DNA of 35,796 bases, from contig CABVRR010000006.1 of the NCBI GenBank assembly GCA_902500705.1, positions 17,944 through 53,739 of the forward strand. Reading direction: 5' to 3'. The notes beneath the pieces are model-generated. The model searched no databases. It had not been told where the DNA came from and was given only the letters and a program-made list of their open reading frames with translations. Positions 14,523 to 33,465 of this stretch are shown here, piece by piece. Made by a program: the position numbers and the translations under genes. This DNA is from an uncultured Nitrospira sp. Its GTDB lineage: Bacteria; Nitrospirota; Nitrospiria; Nitrospirales; Nitrospiraceae. Within the stretch, counting starts at the first letter, position 1, and every line of letters starts with the position of its first letter.

Positions 14523-15269
14523 ATGAGCAAAGCTTCAACACACGAACGGAAATCGTTTTCGAGTCAAGGTGCGAGACGCGAACAGTTGATCAAAGAGTTC
14601 GCGCATATTATTCGGGCGATGGCCCATCGACTGGCGTTTCGCCTCCCGGCGTACTTGGACGCGGAGGATCTGATTTCAGTCGGCACGATCGGACTGATGG
14701 ATGCCATGGATAAGTATGATCCAAGCAGGGAAGCAAAGTTTAAAACCTATGCGGAGTTTCGAATTCGTGGCGCCATGCTCGATGAGATTCGTTCGATGGA
14801 CTGGATCCCGCGATCCGTTCATGAACGAGTCGGGTTGCTTCAAAAAACGCACGTGACGCTCATGAGCCGTCTGGGCCGACCGCCGCAGGAGGAAGAGGTG
14901 GCGGCGGAACTGAAGATGTCCTTGGAAGAACTGGATGATTTCATCACACGGGCGAGAGGCGCGGTCATGATCAGTGTCGACGATTTGAGTCTCCATGAGC
15001 CGGACGGGCACAAAGTCGTCAAGATGTTGGCCGATACGCACACGCCCGATCCGCTGGCCTCATTGGTCAACGAACGTGAACGCGAATTGATCGGCGAAGC
15101 TATTCAGATGTTACCGGAAAAAGAACGACTCGTCTTGACGTTGTATTATTACGAAGAGCTCACGATGAAAGAGATCGGAGAGTTGTTGAAAGTTACAGAA
15201 TCGCGAGTGTGCCAAATTCATACCAAGTCCATCATCCGACTCAAGGCCCACTTACAATTGCCCAATTGA
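14523..15269 (+). CDS. fliA: Flagellar sigma factor FliA (sigma-28)
   Basis: FliA directs RNA polymerase to late flagellar promoters and is held inactive by FlgM. The 248-residue protein shows sigma region 2 at ~40-110 (DAEDLISVGTIGLMDAMDKY, FKTYAEFRIRGAMLDEIRSM), region 3 at ~115-175 (RLGRPPQEEEVAAEL) and region 4 at ~190-245 (LPEKERLVLTLYYYEELTMK, the helix-turn-helix TESRVCQIHTKSIIRLKA). A GGAAGGA site precedes the ATG. It is the last gene of the fliL operon and its stop lies inside a hairpin. Matching FliA-like promoters are seen upstream of five genes or operons in this window. Confidence 0.97.
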   Translation: MSKASTHERKSFSSQGARREQLIKEFAHIIRAMAHRLAFRLPAYLDAEDLISVGTIGLMDAMDKYDPSREAKFKTYAEFRIRGAMLDEIRSMDWIPRSVHERVGLLQKTHVTLMSRLGRPPQEEEVAAELKMSLEELDDFITRARGAVMISVDDLSLHEPDGHKVVKMLADTHTPDPLASLVNERERELIGEAIQMLPEKERLVLTLYYYEELTMKEIGELLKVTESRVCQIHTKSIIRLKAHLQLPN

Positions 15270-15476: not shown

Positions 15477-16352
15477 ATGTCAACCTTTCAACTATCCACG
15501 AAGACTCCACGCCGGAACACAGTGCGCTCTGGGTCTTTACGATCGCGAGAGCGATCCATCGTCTGGTGGTGCGCCTCAGTGCTGATGTGTGGCGTCAGCA
15601 TGGCATGGCTGGGGCTGACCGCGGTCGATTCGACGAACGTGACCGATGTCCTTTCCACGCGACTGGTTATCGGGTGGATGGGAATTGTGGTTGCTGCAGG
15701 ATTCGGTGCGGCAGGACTCTGGTATTGGTCGCCTCGCCCGAATCGCATACGGCGCGAGCCGGAAGCCGCCGTTTCTGCATATGATGGTGTGACGGGTTTG
15801 CCGACACGCCGGCTTTATCTGCTGTTGCTCGGTCACGCATTAAGCAGGGCTGAAGCCACCATGCGGAGGGTCGCGGTATTGGTCTGTGCCTTAGAACCGT
15901 TCAGTCCGCTGTCGACATCGTTGAGCATGTCGCAGATGACGCTCATCGTGAGAGTGCAAGCGGCTCGTATCAAGAGCGCATTGCGTTCGCATGATGTGGT
16001 GGCGCGCTTGGACGAGTACACCTTTGCCGTAATCGCCGATAATCTTGAATCAGCGGATGGGGCACGATTGATTGCCGAGAAAATCCAGCATGCCATGGCG
16101 CTCCCACTGTCGATCGAAGGCCATGAGTTGCTGATTGCCTGCCGGATCGGAGGAATCGTCGGGCCTCAACAGGGAACTCATGCAGATGCCCTGCTCGATG
16201 CTGCAACGGAAGTCCTCGAAGAAGGGGAACTCAGCGATGCGGGGAGCACGCTGATCGTGGTGGCTCCACAGCCAGGGGCAACAGAACACGACACAGGCGT
16301 CAGTGCATCCATTCCCAGTCCGCAGGAATCTTCTCTGGTTAGTCACCGCTAG
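15477..16352 (+). CDS. Membrane protein with degenerate GGDEF domain
   Basis: Two membrane helices (~28-50, ~63-84) are followed by a GGDEF-fold domain (~100-275) that begins with the family pattern DGVTGLPTRR. The signature GGDEF is replaced by DEYTF (179-183, context ARLDEYTFAVIAD). The metal-binding DLDxF is replaced by ALEPF (138-142), so diguanylate cyclase activity is unlikely. The I-site RxxD is retained as RSHD at 170-173, which would allow cyclic-di-GMP binding. Start: the frame is open from 15273, but ATG 15477 is preferred because of the possible promoter at 15350-15377; the ribosome site is weak. It sits between fliA and flgF, suggesting a flagellar role that remains inferred. Confidence 0.75.
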   Translation: MSTFQLSTKTPRRNTVRSGSLRSRERSIVWWCASVLMCGVSMAWLGLTAVDSTNVTDVLSTRLVIGWMGIVVAAGFGAAGLWYWSPRPNRIRREPEAAVSAYDGVTGLPTRRLYLLLLGHALSRAEATMRRVAVLVCALEPFSPLSTSLSMSQMTLIVRVQAARIKSALRSHDVVARLDEYTFAVIADNLESADGARLIAEKIQHAMALPLSIEGHELLIACRIGGIVGPQQGTHADALLDAATEVLEEGELSDAGSTLIVVAPQPGATEHDTGVSASIPSPQESSLVSHR

Positions 16353-16503: not shown

Positions 16504-16519
16504 TGGCACAAGGGTTGCT
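16504..16519 (+). promoter_or_regulatory. Sigma-54 promoter for flgF-flgG-flgA-flgH-flgI-flgJ
   Basis: TGGCACAAGGGTTGCT matches the -24/-12 consensus nearly base for base, with GG and GC 10 bases apart. Predicted start is near 16530. An AAGGAG ribosome site at 16535-16540 and the flgF ATG at 16549 follow directly. Confidence 0.8.
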
Positions 16520-16548: not shown

Positions 16549-17319
16549 ATGAATCGAGGCATCTATCCCATCTTATCCGGCGCGCTGGCCCACGAACGGC
16601 GGATGCAAGTTTTCGCGAACAACATGGCCAACGTGAACACTGCAGGGTTTAAGCAGGACGAGCAGGCATTCAAAGCCATATTCCCACCGTCCCATGCGGT
16701 CGTTCCCATCGGAGGCCGAACGATGGGACTGGCGCAACAGATCATGGCCAGACCATTCGGACCGACGGAGCGCGCGTTTGTCGCACCGCATCAGGTCAAA
16801 ACCACCTTTGAGTCGGGTCGTATCAGGCTGACAGGCAATCCGTTGGATGTCGCCATTCAAGGGCAAGGGTTTCTTCAGGTTCAGACGCCACAGGGGCTTC
16901 GTTATACCCGCAACGGCATGCTGGCGCTGGATAATCAACGTCGGTTGGTGACCGGACTAGGCTATCCCGTGATGGGGACAAAAGGGGAAATCAAAATTCC
17001 TCCTGGAAAAATTGACATCACGCCGCAGGGAGTCATCAAAGTCGATGATCGATCGATCGGGACGATCAAAGTCATGGAATTTTCGGAAGACGACATGCCG
17101 CGGAAGTCTTCGGATGGGCTGTTCTTCTCGGAGAAGGGGACGGAAGCCAAGAATCCGCAGATCCAGGTCGGACATATCGAAGAGTCCAATGTGAATTCAA
17201 TCGGTGAGATGGTGAAGATGATTCAGGGGATGCGCAACTATGAATCGACGCAAAAGCTGATTCAAACACTCGATCGCATGGCCGAAGTTGCCATTCAAGA
17301 CGTAGGGCGAGTGGTGTAA
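16549..17319 (+). CDS. flgF: Flagellar basal-body rod protein FlgF
   Basis: FlgF is a proximal rod subunit. The 256-residue product carries the N-terminal rod motif (RRMQVFANNMANVNTAGFKQ, ~17-36), the central FlgE/F/G beta region with NPLDVAIQGQGFLQVQTPQG and YTRNGMLALD, and the C-terminal helix EESNVNSIGEMVKMIQGMRN, ending in the coiled-coil partner. It begins MNRGIYPILSGALAHE, distinct from the FlgG start. The ATG is set by AAGGAG 8 bases upstream. It is the first gene of the third sigma-54 operon, 68 bases before flgG. Confidence 0.93.
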   Translation: MNRGIYPILSGALAHERRMQVFANNMANVNTAGFKQDEQAFKAIFPPSHAVVPIGGRTMGLAQQIMARPFGPTERAFVAPHQVKTTFESGRIRLTGNPLDVAIQGQGFLQVQTPQGLRYTRNGMLALDNQRRLVTGLGYPVMGTKGEIKIPPGKIDITPQGVIKVDDRSIGTIKVMEFSEDDMPRKSSDGLFFSEKGTEAKNPQIQVGHIEESNVNSIGEMVKMIQGMRNYESTQKLIQTLDRMAEVAIQDVGRVV

Positions 17320-28333: not shown

Positions 28334-31222
28334 TCAGGCGGCTGCTTGAGTGATGGGCTGGTATCCCTGCCGATAGGATTCAAGGATGCGGACGAGTCGT
28401 GCGACTTCGATCTCGAGTTGCGCGTAGACCAACGGGGCATCGTGAAGTGCGTTGAGACGGCCCACGGCTTCAAGACGACCGGCAGTCAGTGCGACTTCAG
28501 ACGCGCATAGATTTCCAGCGGTACCTTTGAACGTGTGCGCCATCCGCTCGATGGCAATTGCGTCGGCATCGGCGAGCGCCATTCTGATATCGGCGAGCAT
28601 GGTGTGATGGCGATCAAGAAACAAGCAGACGAGTTGCGCGAATAACTCACCGTCGTCGCCGATATTCCGATACATTTTTGCAGGATCGAAGATTCCTCGA
28701 GTCGGATCGGTTGTGACGGGAACTGAGTGCTGTTTCTCGGGAGGCGCTGCTTCGGACGGCGTGGATGCCCATCGTACCAGAGCGCTTCGCAGTTCACTCA
28801 GCTTGATCGGTTTAGCTAAATAATCGTCCATCCCGGTTGCCAAGCAGCGCTCGCGATCACCCGGCATCGCATTGGCAGTGACCGCAATAATTGGTATATG
28901 CGGCGTCGATCGTGGAGTTGGATCTGAAGGGGACGTATTGCTTTCGGGCGTGTTCCGTGAGGCCACCGAGGTTTCATGCTCGCGAATGCACCGAGTGGTC
29001 TCAAACCCGTCCATGATCGGCATCTGACAATCCATGAGGATGGCGGCATAGTTTCCGTTGGCGAGCGCAGTCAGCGCTTCTTGACCGTTTCCAACGACGT
29101 CCGGTTTGTAGCCGAGCTTCTCGACCATTCGCACGGCGAGCTTCTGATTGACGACATTGTCTTCTACGACCAAGATGTGTCGATGTTGCACATTCTCCGC
29201 AACCATATGTCTGGTCACAAGTTGAGGCGTACCGGAAGGTGTATGCGTATCGTCCTGTACGTGTCCCTCGGGCAAGCCCAACACGGTTCGGAGGCAGTCA
29301 CGCAATTCATCATGGCGAACAGGCTTGGGCAGGTAGCCCATCGCGCCGGCCCGGCGAGCTTGTTCCGCATGACCCCGTTGTAGGATCGATGTCATCACGA
29401 CGAGGCGAATCTTGGATCCCGCAGGGTGGCTTTGCAGTTCTCGCGCAAGTTGCAATCCGTCTTTTCCCGGCATGACGACATCCAAAATCGCCAGATCGTA
29501 CGGCGTTCCTCGCTGTTCGGCCTTCGTGATGCACTGCAGGGCTGATTCGGCATCTTCTGCAAGGTCGTCGATCATGCCCCAGCCCGAGACCAGATGATGG
29601 AGGATTAAACGATTCGATTCATTATCGTCGACGATCAAGACACGTTTTTGAGTAAGATCTCCGGTTGGAAGAATCGCGCGCGGAGAATGCGCTTGTTTTT
29701 GAAGACGTGCGGTACACCAGAAGGTGCTGCCGTGATCCTCGACGCTGCGTACGCCGACCTCTCCACCCATCAACTCCACGAGTTGTTTGGAAATCGAAAG
29801 GCCAAGGCCGGTGCCGCCGTACTTTCTTGTCGTGGAGCTGTCGGCCTGCTCAAACGGACGGAACAGTTTGGCCTGCGCATTTGGACTGATTCCAATGCCG
29901 CTGTCCGTGACTTCAAAGCGAATGATAGCTGCGTCGAGGAGATCTTCTTCGAGATACGCCTGCAGGGTGACCTCACCTTTATCGGTAAATTTCACCGCGT
30001 TGGCGACCAGATTACTGAGGATTTGACGCAGGCGGCCTGGGTCCCCTTTGAGTCCCGTGGGAACCGCCGCATGGACAAGTCCGGTCAGTTCCAACCCTTT
30101 TGTCTCGGCCCGCTCGGCAAATTGTGCCAAGACCTGCTCCACCGTGGTGCGTAGGTTGAAGTCGAGACATTCCAGTTCCAGCTTGCCCGCTTCGATTTTG
30201 CTGCATTCGAGCACGTCATTGATCAGTTGCAGCAGTGCTTCGCCGCATTGCCGAATCGTCTCGGCATAGGATTGCTGCTCGGACGTCAACGACGTCTCCA
30301 TCAACAAGCTTGTCATACCGATCACCCCGTTCATCGGGGTCCGTAGCTCATGGCTGACGGTGGCGAGAAATGCGGTCTTGGCACGTGCCGACTCTTTTGC
30401 CTCATCCAGTGCTCGGTCCAGACGAAGGTTGCTCTGGCGAAGCTGGTCGGCTGAGAGCTGGAGGGCCAGCTGCGTCGTCCGAACGTTCGTCAGGTCAGTG
30501 GCATAGCCTCGCACGACGCTCTGTGTGGGCACCGGGCAGAAGGTCCACGAAAAACTAGCCTCCGGGAGCGTCACCGTCTCATCCTGACGGACCTGATTTG
30601 TGTCGAGGCAACGTCGTACGATATCCGATAGGTCGTGCGGCGCGACGTTCGGAAACCCTTCCGGACTGTAGCCAAATCGAGCGAGCAAGGAAATCATCGC
30701 TGGATTGGCATACAGTAGGCTGACATGCCGGTCCAGTTCAATCATCGGCAAGGGACTTTCCTCAGCGATTGCCGTCAATCGATCACGTTCCTGCTCTACG
30801 TCCAGTTCATGGGACAAGTCCCGCACACTGATCATCAAGACCGTCTTGTCGTTGAGCGTACTGGGCGCGCAAGTCAACTCTACGGGGATGTAATGAGGGG
30901 TTTTCTCCAAGGAAAGATGTTGTGTGACAGAAGTCGGGCGACGGCTTTTCAGTACGCTGTTCAGCTGAGTAGTAATAGTCGTGATGTCGGATTGTGTGAG
31001 CCGTGACCACAAGGATGGAAATGATCGAACGGTGGGAGAAAGCAACCGTGCGCCAAGCAACCGACGACTTTCCCGATTCGCCGCTAAAACGGCCAGATCA
31101 GTGTCAAGAATGATGGTGGCCAGCGGAAGCCCGTCGAGCAGGTCGAGACTCGCATGCGCCGCAGTCGACAAGGCTGCCGGTCGGTGCCGTGGGTATTTGC
31201 GTTTTCGTCCTGACGACTTCAT
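28334..31222 (-). CDS. Cytoplasmic hybrid histidine kinase (PAS-HisKA-HATPase-REC-REC-Hpt)
   Basis: The ~962-residue product has no membrane helix. Order: two PAS-like segments (~25-135, ~145-245), a coiled coil, HisKA with phospho-acceptor in SHELRTP (His291), an ATPase domain with DSGIGIS and GGTGLGLSI (~390-505), receiver 1 with Asp581 in LDVVMPG, receiver 2 with Asp731 in MDCQMP, and Hpt with His896 in MAHTFKGTAGN. All key residues are present, so a full internal phosphorelay (His-Asp-His) is likely. The output partner is not seen. ATG 31222 shares its A with the TGA of the HD-GYP gene (TGATG); GTG 31225 is an alternative. It resembles BarA/TorS-like kinases. Confidence 0.93.
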   Translation of the reverse strand: MKSSGRKRKYPRHRPAALSTAAHASLDLLDGLPLATIILDTDLAVLAANRESRRLLGARLLSPTVRSFPSLWSRLTQSDITTITTQLNSVLKSRRPTSVTQHLSLEKTPHYIPVELTCAPSTLNDKTVLMISVRDLSHELDVEQERDRLTAIAEESPLPMIELDRHVSLLYANPAMISLLARFGYSPEGFPNVAPHDLSDIVRRCLDTNQVRQDETVTLPEASFSWTFCPVPTQSVVRGYATDLTNVRTTQLALQLSADQLRQSNLRLDRALDEAKESARAKTAFLATVSHELRTPMNGVIGMTSLLMETSLTSEQQSYAETIRQCGEALLQLINDVLECSKIEAGKLELECLDFNLRTTVEQVLAQFAERAETKGLELTGLVHAAVPTGLKGDPGRLRQILSNLVANAVKFTDKGEVTLQAYLEEDLLDAAIIRFEVTDSGIGISPNAQAKLFRPFEQADSSTTRKYGGTGLGLSISKQLVELMGGEVGVRSVEDHGSTFWCTARLQKQAHSPRAILPTGDLTQKRVLIVDDNESNRLILHHLVSGWGMIDDLAEDAESALQCITKAEQRGTPYDLAILDVVMPGKDGLQLARELQSHPAGSKIRLVVMTSILQRGHAEQARRAGAMGYLPKPVRHDELRDCLRTVLGLPEGHVQDDTHTPSGTPQLVTRHMVAENVQHRHILVVEDNVVNQKLAVRMVEKLGYKPDVVGNGQEALTALANGNYAAILMDCQMPIMDGFETTRCIREHETSVASRNTPESNTSPSDPTPRSTPHIPIIAVTANAMPGDRERCLATGMDDYLAKPIKLSELRSALVRWASTPSEAAPPEKQHSVPVTTDPTRGIFDPAKMYRNIGDDGELFAQLVCLFLDRHHTMLADIRMALADADAIAIERMAHTFKGTAGNLCASEVALTAGRLEAVGRLNALHDAPLVYAQLEIEVARLVRILESYRQGYQPITQAAA

Positions 31223-32490
31223 CACGCGGCTCGTGGAAGAGTTTGATCCAGATGGATACTGATATTGACACGTTCTTTTGCCGGGTCGAGGACACGCAAC
31301 ACGCTTCTCACGGTGTGGTCGGGGGATGGTGTTGACAGGTCCACTTCGAGTGGTGTCGCGTAAGAACCTCCTTGTGGGTCCGTCGTGATTTTGACCAGAG
31401 GTTTGAGTCGTTGCTGAGGATTGACTCCGACGACGACCGCCTGTTCGCCGGTCGTGAGTCTGACAAGACTTCCGACCGGGTACACACCGATACTCCGAAT
31501 CATGAGCTCCACGAGAGATTTTTCGAAATGTCCCCGTTCTCCAGCCAAAAACAGTTGACGAACGGCATCGTGTGGAATCATGGCCGGTCGTGTGCCGCGT
31601 CGACTGATCATGCCATCATAGAAATCGACAATGCCGACGATCTGGGCAAGGCGCGACGTCGTCTCGTGGCCTAGTCCGGCTGGAAACCCGCTTGCATCGG
31701 CTCGCTCATGATGCTCTCTGACGATGCGTAACACCTCTTCCTGCATGCCGGGGAGTTCGGAGAGGAGCGCGACGCCGAGCTTGCAATGCTGTTCAAGAAG
31801 GGTCTTGTCAGCCCCGCTGCATTCCTCTCGTCTGCGAACAAGATTGCGCGGAAGGCGGACATATCCCGCGTCATGCAGTAACGCGCCCATTCCGACCTGT
31901 TCTTGTGTCTGATGGTCCGCTCCGCTCTCAATCGCCACCACGAGCGACAAGATACAGGTATCCAGTGCATGGGCCGTGAGGGAACGGTCGAACTGCTTCA
32001 TTTTTTGAATGGCGATCTGAGTGGTCATTGCGGCCGGATTGGTGAGCACTTGCGCTAACACATTCGACACGATGGTTTTAGTCTCCTCGGGCGACGGGGG
32101 AATGCCTCGCTCAAGATCCTCAAAAATTCGCTCGACTGCTTCTTGAGCTTGGGCGTAGATCAAGGTGACCGAATGATCCTCAGGTCGTGTCTCTTGCGTT
32201 TCAACGGTGTGGTCGGTCTTTTGACTTGGCGCCGTAGGAGCATGTGGGTTGGGACTGGGCTGATCGGGAACGGATGACGTATTCGCCGGAGGTCCCGATG
32301 GAAGGTCGGTTCCTTTGCTGGTATCGATAGTCACCATTCTGATTCCATGCACCTTCATGAGCTCAATGGTCTGTAGATCCTTGATCAGCCGTTTATGAGA
32401 GAGGAAAGGGGTTCGGTACCATGGGACATCCATTTCCGTGATGAACATGCCGGGAACAAGCTGCTCGATTGCGATACGCTTTGTCGCCAT
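31222..32490 (-). CDS. HD-GYP domain protein with DUF3391
   Basis: The 422-residue product begins with the DUF3391 domain common ahead of HD-GYP (MATKRIAIEQLVPGMFITEM, ~1-65), followed by a Pro/Ser/Thr linker at ~65-105 and an HD-GYP domain at ~110-360. His/Asp pairs are present: His174 in TAHALDT, HD at 206-207 (LLHDAGYVRLP), HHE at 260-262 and SGFP at 267-270 in place of SGYP. A cyclic-di-GMP phosphodiesterase is likely, though some residues differ from the canonical set (ADASGFP for DGSGYP). The frame is open to 32631, but ATG 32490 matches DUF3391 and lies below a FliA-type promoter. It is coupled to the kinase downstream. Confidence 0.9.
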   Translation of the reverse strand: MATKRIAIEQLVPGMFITEMDVPWYRTPFLSHKRLIKDLQTIELMKVHGIRMVTIDTSKGTDLPSGPPANTSSVPDQPSPNPHAPTAPSQKTDHTVETQETRPEDHSVTLIYAQAQEAVERIFEDLERGIPPSPEETKTIVSNVLAQVLTNPAAMTTQIAIQKMKQFDRSLTAHALDTCILSLVVAIESGADHQTQEQVGMGALLHDAGYVRLPRNLVRRREECSGADKTLLEQHCKLGVALLSELPGMQEEVLRIVREHHERADASGFPAGLGHETTSRLAQIVGIVDFYDGMISRRGTRPAMIPHDAVRQLFLAGERGHFEKSLVELMIRSIGVYPVGSLVRLTTGEQAVVVGVNPQQRLKPLVKITTDPQGGSYATPLEVDLSTPSPDHTVRSVLRVLDPAKERVNISIHLDQTLPRAA

Positions 32491-32558
32491 AGGTCTTGAA
32501 CTCCAGGTCGAAAAGAGCTCCGATTGGACGTCTCGACAGAGGAGAAACTCCAGGGACG

Positions 32559-32586
32559 TTATCGGTGAAGTCTGTCGCCAACTTGA
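32559..32586 (-). promoter_or_regulatory. Sigma-28 (FliA) promoter for HD-GYP-kinase operon
   Basis: On the minus strand, TCAAGTTG (32586 to 32579), a 12-base spacer and ACCGATAA (32566 to 32559) match the FliA consensus at 6 of 8 and 7 of 8 bases. The arrangement is nearly that of the flgM promoter (TCAAGTTC-N12-ACCGATAA). A start near 32552 gives a ~60-base leader before ATG 32490. Confidence 0.6.
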
Positions 32587-32656
32587 CCATTGTTGATACA
32601 TCAGGCTGCGTTGTAATCGGTTCTCTGTCATGGTTCTTCACCGAGTACGTTGACGC

Positions 32657-32684: not shown

Positions 32685-32733
32685 AGATCATCAGAGTCGG
32701 TTGGTGTCGGGTGGTTGCTTTGGAGCGATGGCT

Positions 32734-33465
32734 ATGAACGATATCGTAGTGTCCGTTCCCCCTGCGGCATCTTTTTTATCGGTCGGACTGCCGCTGAAAA
32801 TTTCCTTCACGCGTGATCAGCAAAAGGTCATGTATGGTTCGACGCTCCTCGGGTGGAAGGATCACGCATGGCTGGTCTGCGAATGGCCGATCCAGCTTGG
32901 GCATGACCAGCAGATTGCCGGCGGTACTCCGTGCACGGTGAGTTACCTTCATGACGGGAAGTTGGTCGGGTACCGCAGCGAAATACGAGATCTGATTTCC
33001 GCGCCGGTTCCGTTGCTCTTTGTCTCTTATCCCAAATCGGTGGAGGAGATGCATTTGCGGAAACACTTGCGTGTATCCGCCAACGAGCCGACCTTACTGA
33101 TGCGGGTCGCTCATGAGAACCCTTCCGGATCCGCGCTGCGTACCAGCGACTATTTTGGTGGGTTACTCAAAGATCTCAGTGAGAGCGGATGCAGTGTGCT
33201 GTTGGTTCGAACACCGGCCTGGCTTCGTGCTGGAACGATCATCCACATGGAGTTCGAGCTTCCTGGACTAGGACACATTACGAATCTGACGGGCATCATC
33301 AAGAATGCCGATGCGCGGGACGGTGGAGATATTGTCGGCATCGAGTTTCAATTCAATCAATTAGAGTACATCGAGTACCGCGGATGGGGTGGTTCGGTTC
33401 GTCAGGCAATAGAACAATGCGTTCGTCAGCGATATCCCGGAGACGATCTCCTCATCGCTGGATAG
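32734..33465 (+). CDS. YcgR-like PilZ protein (flagellar brake type)
   Basis: The 243-residue product has an N-terminal YcgR-like beta domain (~10-100: LKISFTRDQQKVMYGSTLLG and LVGYRSEIRDLI) and a C-terminal PilZ domain (~105-230). Both cyclic-di-GMP motifs are present: RxxxR as Arg109/Arg113 in LRKHLRVSA, and DxSxxG as Asp147/Ser149/Gly152 in DLSESG. YcgR slows or biases the flagellar motor when loaded with cyclic-di-GMP, and the flagellar context supports that role. TGGAG at 32721-32725, 8 bases upstream, favours ATG 32734 over ATG 32728 and a TTG at 32701. A FliA-like promoter lies upstream. Confidence 0.88.
   Translation: MNDIVVSVPPAASFLSVGLPLKISFTRDQQKVMYGSTLLGWKDHAWLVCEWPIQLGHDQQIAGGTPCTVSYLHDGKLVGYRSEIRDLISAPVPLLFVSYPKSVEEMHLRKHLRVSANEPTLLMRVAHENPSGSALRTSDYFGGLLKDLSESGCSVLLVRTPAWLRAGTIIHMEFELPGLGHITNLTGIIKNADARDGGDIVGIEFQFNQLEYIEYRGWGGSVRQAIEQCVRQRYPGDDLLIAG

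Follow-up and report, generated by a model that had tools for sequence, protein, structure and literature searches.

A degenerate, membrane-anchored GGDEF protein encoded beside fliA in Nitrospira: old loss of catalysis, uneven retention of the I-site and repeated gene loss

Degenerate GGDEF domains of the GdpP type provide a precedent for nucleotide binding. In E. coli, degenerate GGDEF domains such as that of CdgI make strong GGDEF-GGDEF contacts, CdgI, PdeK and CsrD being precedents for contact modules; contact with EAL domains is postulated to run over the alpha5 surface of GGDEF, and the N-terminal domain of CdgI is described as common to DgcT/DgcX (available portions of PMC5635695). PopA, PelD and SgmT are precedents for receptors acting through the I-site, the RxxD motif (available portions of PMC10333796 and PMC3509222). 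The gene described here belongs to the degenerate GGDEF proteins, a kind already known. It lies between fliA and flgF of an uncultured Nitrospira sp., in a stretch of 35,796 nucleotides, hereafter the window (assembly GCA_902500705.1, contig CABVRR010000006.1, positions 17,944 to 53,739, forward strand). The interpretation that we favour, and to which we give an even chance, is that its product is a dead GGDEF pseudo-enzyme tethered to the inner membrane, working through protein contact, unneeded for building the flagellum, and undergoing loss.

An earlier sequence-only reading had proposed that DEYTF replaces GGDEF, that ALEPF replaces the metal-binding DLDxF, and that RSHD is retained at the I-site. 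The translation and the alignment confirm all three substitutions and motifs. The register, held there to be beyond doubt, is secured by an intact gene that occupies this locus in related genera: ALR-SHD-VVARL-DEYTF-AVI matches its VRATDTVSRLGGDEFTVI column for column. The two-helix membrane anchor corresponds to two hydrophobic segments, at about residues 27-53 and 54-83 (Kyte-Doolittle, 19-residue span, values above 1.2), and to the helices 19-47 and 55-83 of an AlphaFold model, to be taken with caution given a mean predicted local distance difference test score (pLDDT) of 55, a predicted template modelling score (pTM) of 0.43 and an input of 4 sequences. The structure prediction that had been called for thus gave a weak model; its Foldseek matches are GGDEF structures, which confirms the fold and no more. 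The match to PF00990 places the domain in the GGDEF superfamily (Table 1). The best sequence match in the Protein Data Bank is 5m3c, the GGDEF-EAL protein PA0575, and no NCBIfam model scored over its cut-off, the best being DibA with 64.1 bits, far below its 980. Residues of the GTP site are also gone, the Asn being S146 and the GH/GD residues G154-D155 being replaced by M-T (T155). The features of an active diguanylate cyclase are therefore missing: there is no GG[DE]EF, and the metal Asp of DLDxF and the GTP-site Asn and Asp are absent (ALEPF, S146, T155). Judged by sequence, the synthase is dead.

Orthologues were sought in 196 genomes of the order by taking the neighbourhoods of the matches, and 58 complete genes adjoining fliA were obtained. 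FlgF is also encoded inside the examined stretch for 51 of them; in the other seven (L013, L014, L015, L016, L018, L019 and L021) FliA is present and FlgF does not fall within it. Rows representing the same place (L006, as L008), paralogues (L001, L005) and matches not at the locus (L070, L072, L073) were removed, as were L038, L039 and L040, apparent duplicates of L009, L016 and L020 by equal open-frame lengths and like identities rather than by letter-by-letter comparison. Orthologues adjoining fliA are spread across one bacterial family (Nitrospira type), the named relatives at 63-65% identity being Nitrospira metagenome-assembled genomes. When 245 genomes of the phylum were searched, matches above 80 bits were confined to the family, and the gene looks family-specific. 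All 58 frames are open in the sequences as fetched. Two hydrophobic segments were recognized by a crude test in 38 orthologues, one in 19, none in 1.

GG[DE]EF is found in none of the 58 orthologues and in 35 of 40 other GGDEF domains of the order, a comparison set made up mostly of top-scoring Pfam matches and hence leaning towards intact domains. The claim that the protein is not a synthase accordingly extends from the window to the whole orthologous group. Because all 58 domains fall into one clade, apart from the 40 (ultrafast bootstrap 100; Shimodaira-Hasegawa-like approximate likelihood ratio test, SH-aLRT, 99), and none carries GG[DE]EF, the predicted loss of catalysis is single, old and inherited. 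Three genomes from two other genera carry an intact sensor-GGDEF-EAL gene next to fliA (L067, L069, L071; the Pfam scan covered one of the three, and flgF lies in the examined stretch in two). The ancestor would be a GGDEF enzyme, probably GGDEF-EAL, of which these two related genera keep an intact form at the fliA locus. Sole descent of the dead genes from the intact gene of the same locus is consistent with the data and unproven, because support is weak, branches are long, and the three intact loci, near the 58, are not their sole sister.

Degeneration of the active site goes far past chance. The 12 catalytic and GTP-binding columns have a mean entropy of 2.14 bits in the orthologues vs. 0.24 in the 40 other domains, the remaining 134 columns being more conserved in the orthologues (1.32 vs. 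1.70 bits); no set among 20000 random 12-column sets showed as extreme a shift. This variability bears on the idea that the protein is a residual or altered nucleotide enzyme, making another cyclic dinucleotide or binding nucleotides in the GdpP manner. The fold is retained, Foldseek finding GGDEF cyclases, and ATPase activity is described for a degenerate GGDEF domain linked to DHH/DHHA1 (available portion of PMC10333796), but the metal ligands, the Asn and the GH/GD residues have gone, and their positions vary among the 58 orthologues. We regard such an activity as highly improbable.

The domain itself is under purifying selection. The ratio of nonsynonymous to synonymous substitutions (dN/dS) was estimated pairwise by the Nei-Gojobori method; pairs are non-independent, and those with dS outside 0.1-2 were excluded from domain, tail and anchor estimates. 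Median values for the domain are 0.14 in the clade of the window (91/91 pairs), 0.09 in its sister clade (28/28), 0.10 in clade g4 (45/45) and 0.18 in clade g2 (158/210). Other parts of the protein are looser: the C-terminal tail reaches 0.66, 0.30, 0.36 and 0.41 in the same four clades, and the anchor region 0.50 in the clade of the window. The lowest domain ratio belongs to the sister clade, in which RxxD is absent from nine of nine genes (eight of the nine entering the ratio). Because purifying selection persists and is strongest where RxxD is absent, the domain seems to be in use for something needing neither catalysis nor the I-site.

What has been kept differs from what active enzymes keep. 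Fourteen residues are invariant in all 58 orthologues (Y102, D103, T106, L108, P109, R112, L113, R159, A162, A163, R164, K166, P210, E217), and only D103 and T106 are near-invariant in the 40 other domains as well. Five of the fourteen, R159, A162, A163, R164 and K166, lie in one helix, alpha2, directly before the I-site. K166 and A163 are poorly conserved in the 40 other domains, ranking above only 5% and 17% of the 146 columns, respectively. A new contact surface on alpha2 is the simplest reading of these residues. Through this surface the protein would bind a partner, either a GGDEF or EAL protein or some other membrane protein, and might serve as a non-catalytic adaptor tuning motility or surface behaviour. 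A bolder version, which we put forward only tentatively, holds that the helix R159-x-x-A-A-R-x-K166 took over the constraint once borne by the active site and the I-site, producing a dedicated protein-docking module, and with it a lineage-specific pseudo-enzyme family linking a signalling partner to the membrane in flagellated Nitrospira-type bacteria.

The sequence-only reading had taken the protein for a probable cyclic-di-GMP sensor, and had set beforehand the conservation of RxxD among orthologues as one of the observations on which this should stand or fall. A receptor of the PopA, CdgI or SgmT type would bind the nucleotide at RSHD and relay the signal to the flagellum, perhaps in an ancestral role fading in the genus. 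The dead active site and the RSHD of the window protein agree with this model, and other degenerate GGDEF domains with an intact RxxD bind cyclic-di-GMP (available portions of PMC5635695, PMC3509222 and PMC10333796). E201/K202 of the window protein lie about where the second I-site Arg (R794 in SgmT) would fall, and Lys 202 is found in 47 of the 58 orthologues, the equivalence being inferred by offset. Outside the genus, RxxD is present in 24 of 34 orthologues and RSTE in five more, R..D or R..E thus being retained in 29 of 34; because of this retention an ancestral I-site role is possible. Conservation as a whole went against the claim, however. RxxD is found in 33 of the 58 orthologues, vs. 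39 of the 40 comparison domains. It is present in 9 of 15 members of the clade of the window, the other six having Gln, and in none of the nine members of the sister clade in the same genus, which mostly feature PSNN, PSHN or PSNH. In conservation the I-site Arg column ranks above 48% of the 146 columns in the 58 domains, an average value, vs. 84% in the 40, and the domain tree requires 11 changes of the Arg state. Selection is moreover strongest where the motif is missing. The motif noted in the window protein is real, while the sensor role inferred from it is unsupported; because RxxD is not conserved among orthologues the claim is weakened, and the protein is probably not an RxxD-dependent sensor. 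We consider the receptor model unlikely.

The gene has been lost over and over. Among 103 genomes of the family encoding a flagellar FliA, 59 carry the dead gene (the 58 complete genes and that of G153, locus L113, cut at a contig end), 3 the intact gene and 8 a relic, whereas the other 33 show no detectable trace; in 6 of these 33 (L088, L092, L098, L100, L105, L114) no adjacent FlgF is found in the stretch and absence rests on the genome search. The relics retain the N-terminal start of the anchor and miss the GGDEF domain. At least 5 of the 8 have the C-terminal tail as well (SLTSHR in L075), and in L075, L085 and L099 both ends are joined in one open frame of 93-97 residues. They form one clade (SH-aLRT 99), sister to L011, where the gene is complete, and close to the window. 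On the tree of flagellar proteins 11 presence/absence changes are counted, and when only strongly supported branches are considered the dead-gene label must still change 8 times; many rows of this tree are half empty, and the position of L012 beside L079 is doubtful. A part of the core flagellar machinery, as which the gene had also been considered, can be rejected, 41 of the 103 flagellated genomes having either a relic or no gene. Because of this repeated loss from genomes whose flagellar gene set persists, the gene is, as judged from gene content, dispensable for flagella.

Losses of this kind invite the view that the gene is a GGDEF-EAL remnant in decay, deprived first of catalysis, then of the I-site and, in some lines, of the domain or the whole gene, and functionless by now in the species of the window. 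Intact orthologues had been named in advance as a sign of simple decay, and they do exist beside fliA, together with the eight domain-less relics near the window and the 33 further gene-less genomes. Whole-gene dN/dS ranges from 0.24 to 0.46 in the clade of the window, higher than in other closest pairs (0.07-0.31) and than for FliA in the same window-clade pairs (0.02-0.10). The other half of the prediction fails: the domain ratio of that clade is 0.14, frames are open in all 58 orthologues, and the invariant residues are different from those of active enzymes. Decay to the point of no function appears rather unlikely to us.

For a pseudo-enzyme working through contact, a partner was sought inside the window and not found. 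Two genes there, where the flagellar region ends, point to cyclic-di-GMP, a YcgR-type PilZNR-PilZ gene (32701-33465, plus strand) and a divergent DUF3391/HD-GYP-type gene (31222-32631, minus strand). Tested as partners by co-occurrence, neither tracks the GGDEF gene. The YcgR-type gene accompanies the dead gene in 57 of 59 genomes and the intact gene in 3 of 3, and occurs in 34 of the 41 genomes without the GGDEF gene (read by hand); the HD-GYP-type gene is comparably widespread among the family's flagellated genomes (not tallied by gene state). This null result weighs against the favoured interpretation, as do the R..D/E signature kept outside the genus and the following points. A contact with EAL domains does not account for alpha2, alpha5 being the postulated surface in the available portion of PMC5635695. 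The conserved alpha2 residues may be structural. A gene that brings little benefit would likewise fit the loss from 41 of the 103 flagellated genomes. Literature searches listed no paper on GGDEF-EAL contact via alpha2 and none on the locus.

Because the YcgR-type gene mostly stays where the GGDEF gene is lost, it would be another obvious candidate receptor for a cyclic-di-GMP input to the flagellum. The genome of the window has a receptor-heavy set, with 7 GGDEF regions, 1 EAL region and 31 PilZ regions. On the same contig, about 12 kb beyond the end of the window, resides a second GGDEF domain whose signature is broken, reading RDNTF, and whose DLD, ND, GH and GD residues are intact (L004, C6:65572-66045); a PilZ region follows soon after.

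The features of the locus are listed in Table 1. The placement between fliA and flgF claimed at the outset holds, both neighbours being identified by Pfam. The reading frame of the GGDEF gene is already open from 15273, so that by sequence alone a longer start is possible. In all 87 of the 87 family loci with enough sequence, a sigma-54-type box matching that of the window precedes flgF, whatever stands between fliA and flgF. Because of this box, the GGDEF gene probably marks the end of the flhF-flhG-fliA side and would be outside the flgF transcription unit. In part of the clade of the window flgF is further off (about 1 kb in L040) or beyond the stretch examined (in the seven loci L013-L016, L018, L019 and L021 mentioned above), hence an insertion or rearrangement behind the GGDEF gene.

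Table 1. Coordinates of the GGDEF gene, its motifs and its neighbours in the window
Feature	Position	Strand	Evidence
fliA, upstream neighbour	14523..15269	+	Sigma70 r2, r3, r4 matches
Degenerate membrane-anchored GGDEF protein, 291 amino acids (aa) (P0001)	15477..16352	+	Open reading frame and translation; orthologues beside fliA, 58 complete
First hydrophobic segment, about aa 27-47	15555..15617	+	Kyte-Doolittle; model helix 19-47
Second hydrophobic segment, about aa 55-83	15639..15725	+	Kyte-Doolittle; model helix 55-83
GGDEF domain, aa 101-249	15777..16223	+	PF00990, 65.7 bits (cut-off 23.8), E 5.6e-18, profile 2-153 of 161; Foldseek matches of model are GGDEF structures
ALEPF at DLDxF position, aa 138-142	15888..15902	+	Sequence, alignment
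Helix LIVRVQAARIKSAL, aa 156-169; R159, A162, A163, R164, K166 invariant in 58 orthologues	15942..15983	+	Alignment
RSHD, I-site RxxD position, aa 170-173	15984..15995	+	Sequence, alignment
DEYTF at GGDEF position, aa 179-183	16011..16025	+	Sequence, alignment
Sigma-54-type -24/-12 box TGGCACAAGGGTTGC	16504..16518	+	45 nt upstream of flgF; divides GGDEF gene from flgF operon
flgF, downstream neighbour	16549..17319	+	Flg_bbr_C, D1, Flg_bb_rod matches

A degenerate GGDEF domain with RxxD is readily named a cyclic-di-GMP receptor. Here the motif of a single genome would mislead, many orthologues having dropped RxxD while the domain is still selected. One locus offers a graded series made up by intact GGDEF-EAL genes, dead GGDEF genes with and without the I-site, domain-deleted relics and loci with no gene, useful for asking what selection keeps in a dead GGDEF domain. 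If the docking-module proposal is true, turnover would be readable stepwise within one family, through its intact, dead, domain-deleted and lost states.

Among known proteins, CdgI resembles the window protein in having a dead active site, a GGDEF domain alone with no EAL domain, and RxxD (available portion of PMC5635695); it differs in that RxxD of the window family is not kept among orthologues. PopA, PelD and SgmT have likewise lost catalytic residues, and the RxxD position can be read in the window protein; yet the I-site is their conserved feature, as far as the available portions of PMC10333796 and PMC3509222 tell, and their architectures (REC-REC-GGDEF, transmembrane-GAF-GGDEF and kinase-GGDEF) are different. 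The GGDEF-EAL proteins DibA and PA0575 share the sequence type of the domain, and intact sensor-GGDEF-EAL genes sit at the same place beside fliA, but the window protein lacks the EAL and sensor domains and its GGDEF domain is dead. The YcgR-type PilZ protein has in common with it the window and the theme of cyclic-di-GMP and the flagellum; its fold is unrelated, and its gene is mostly kept after the GGDEF gene is lost.
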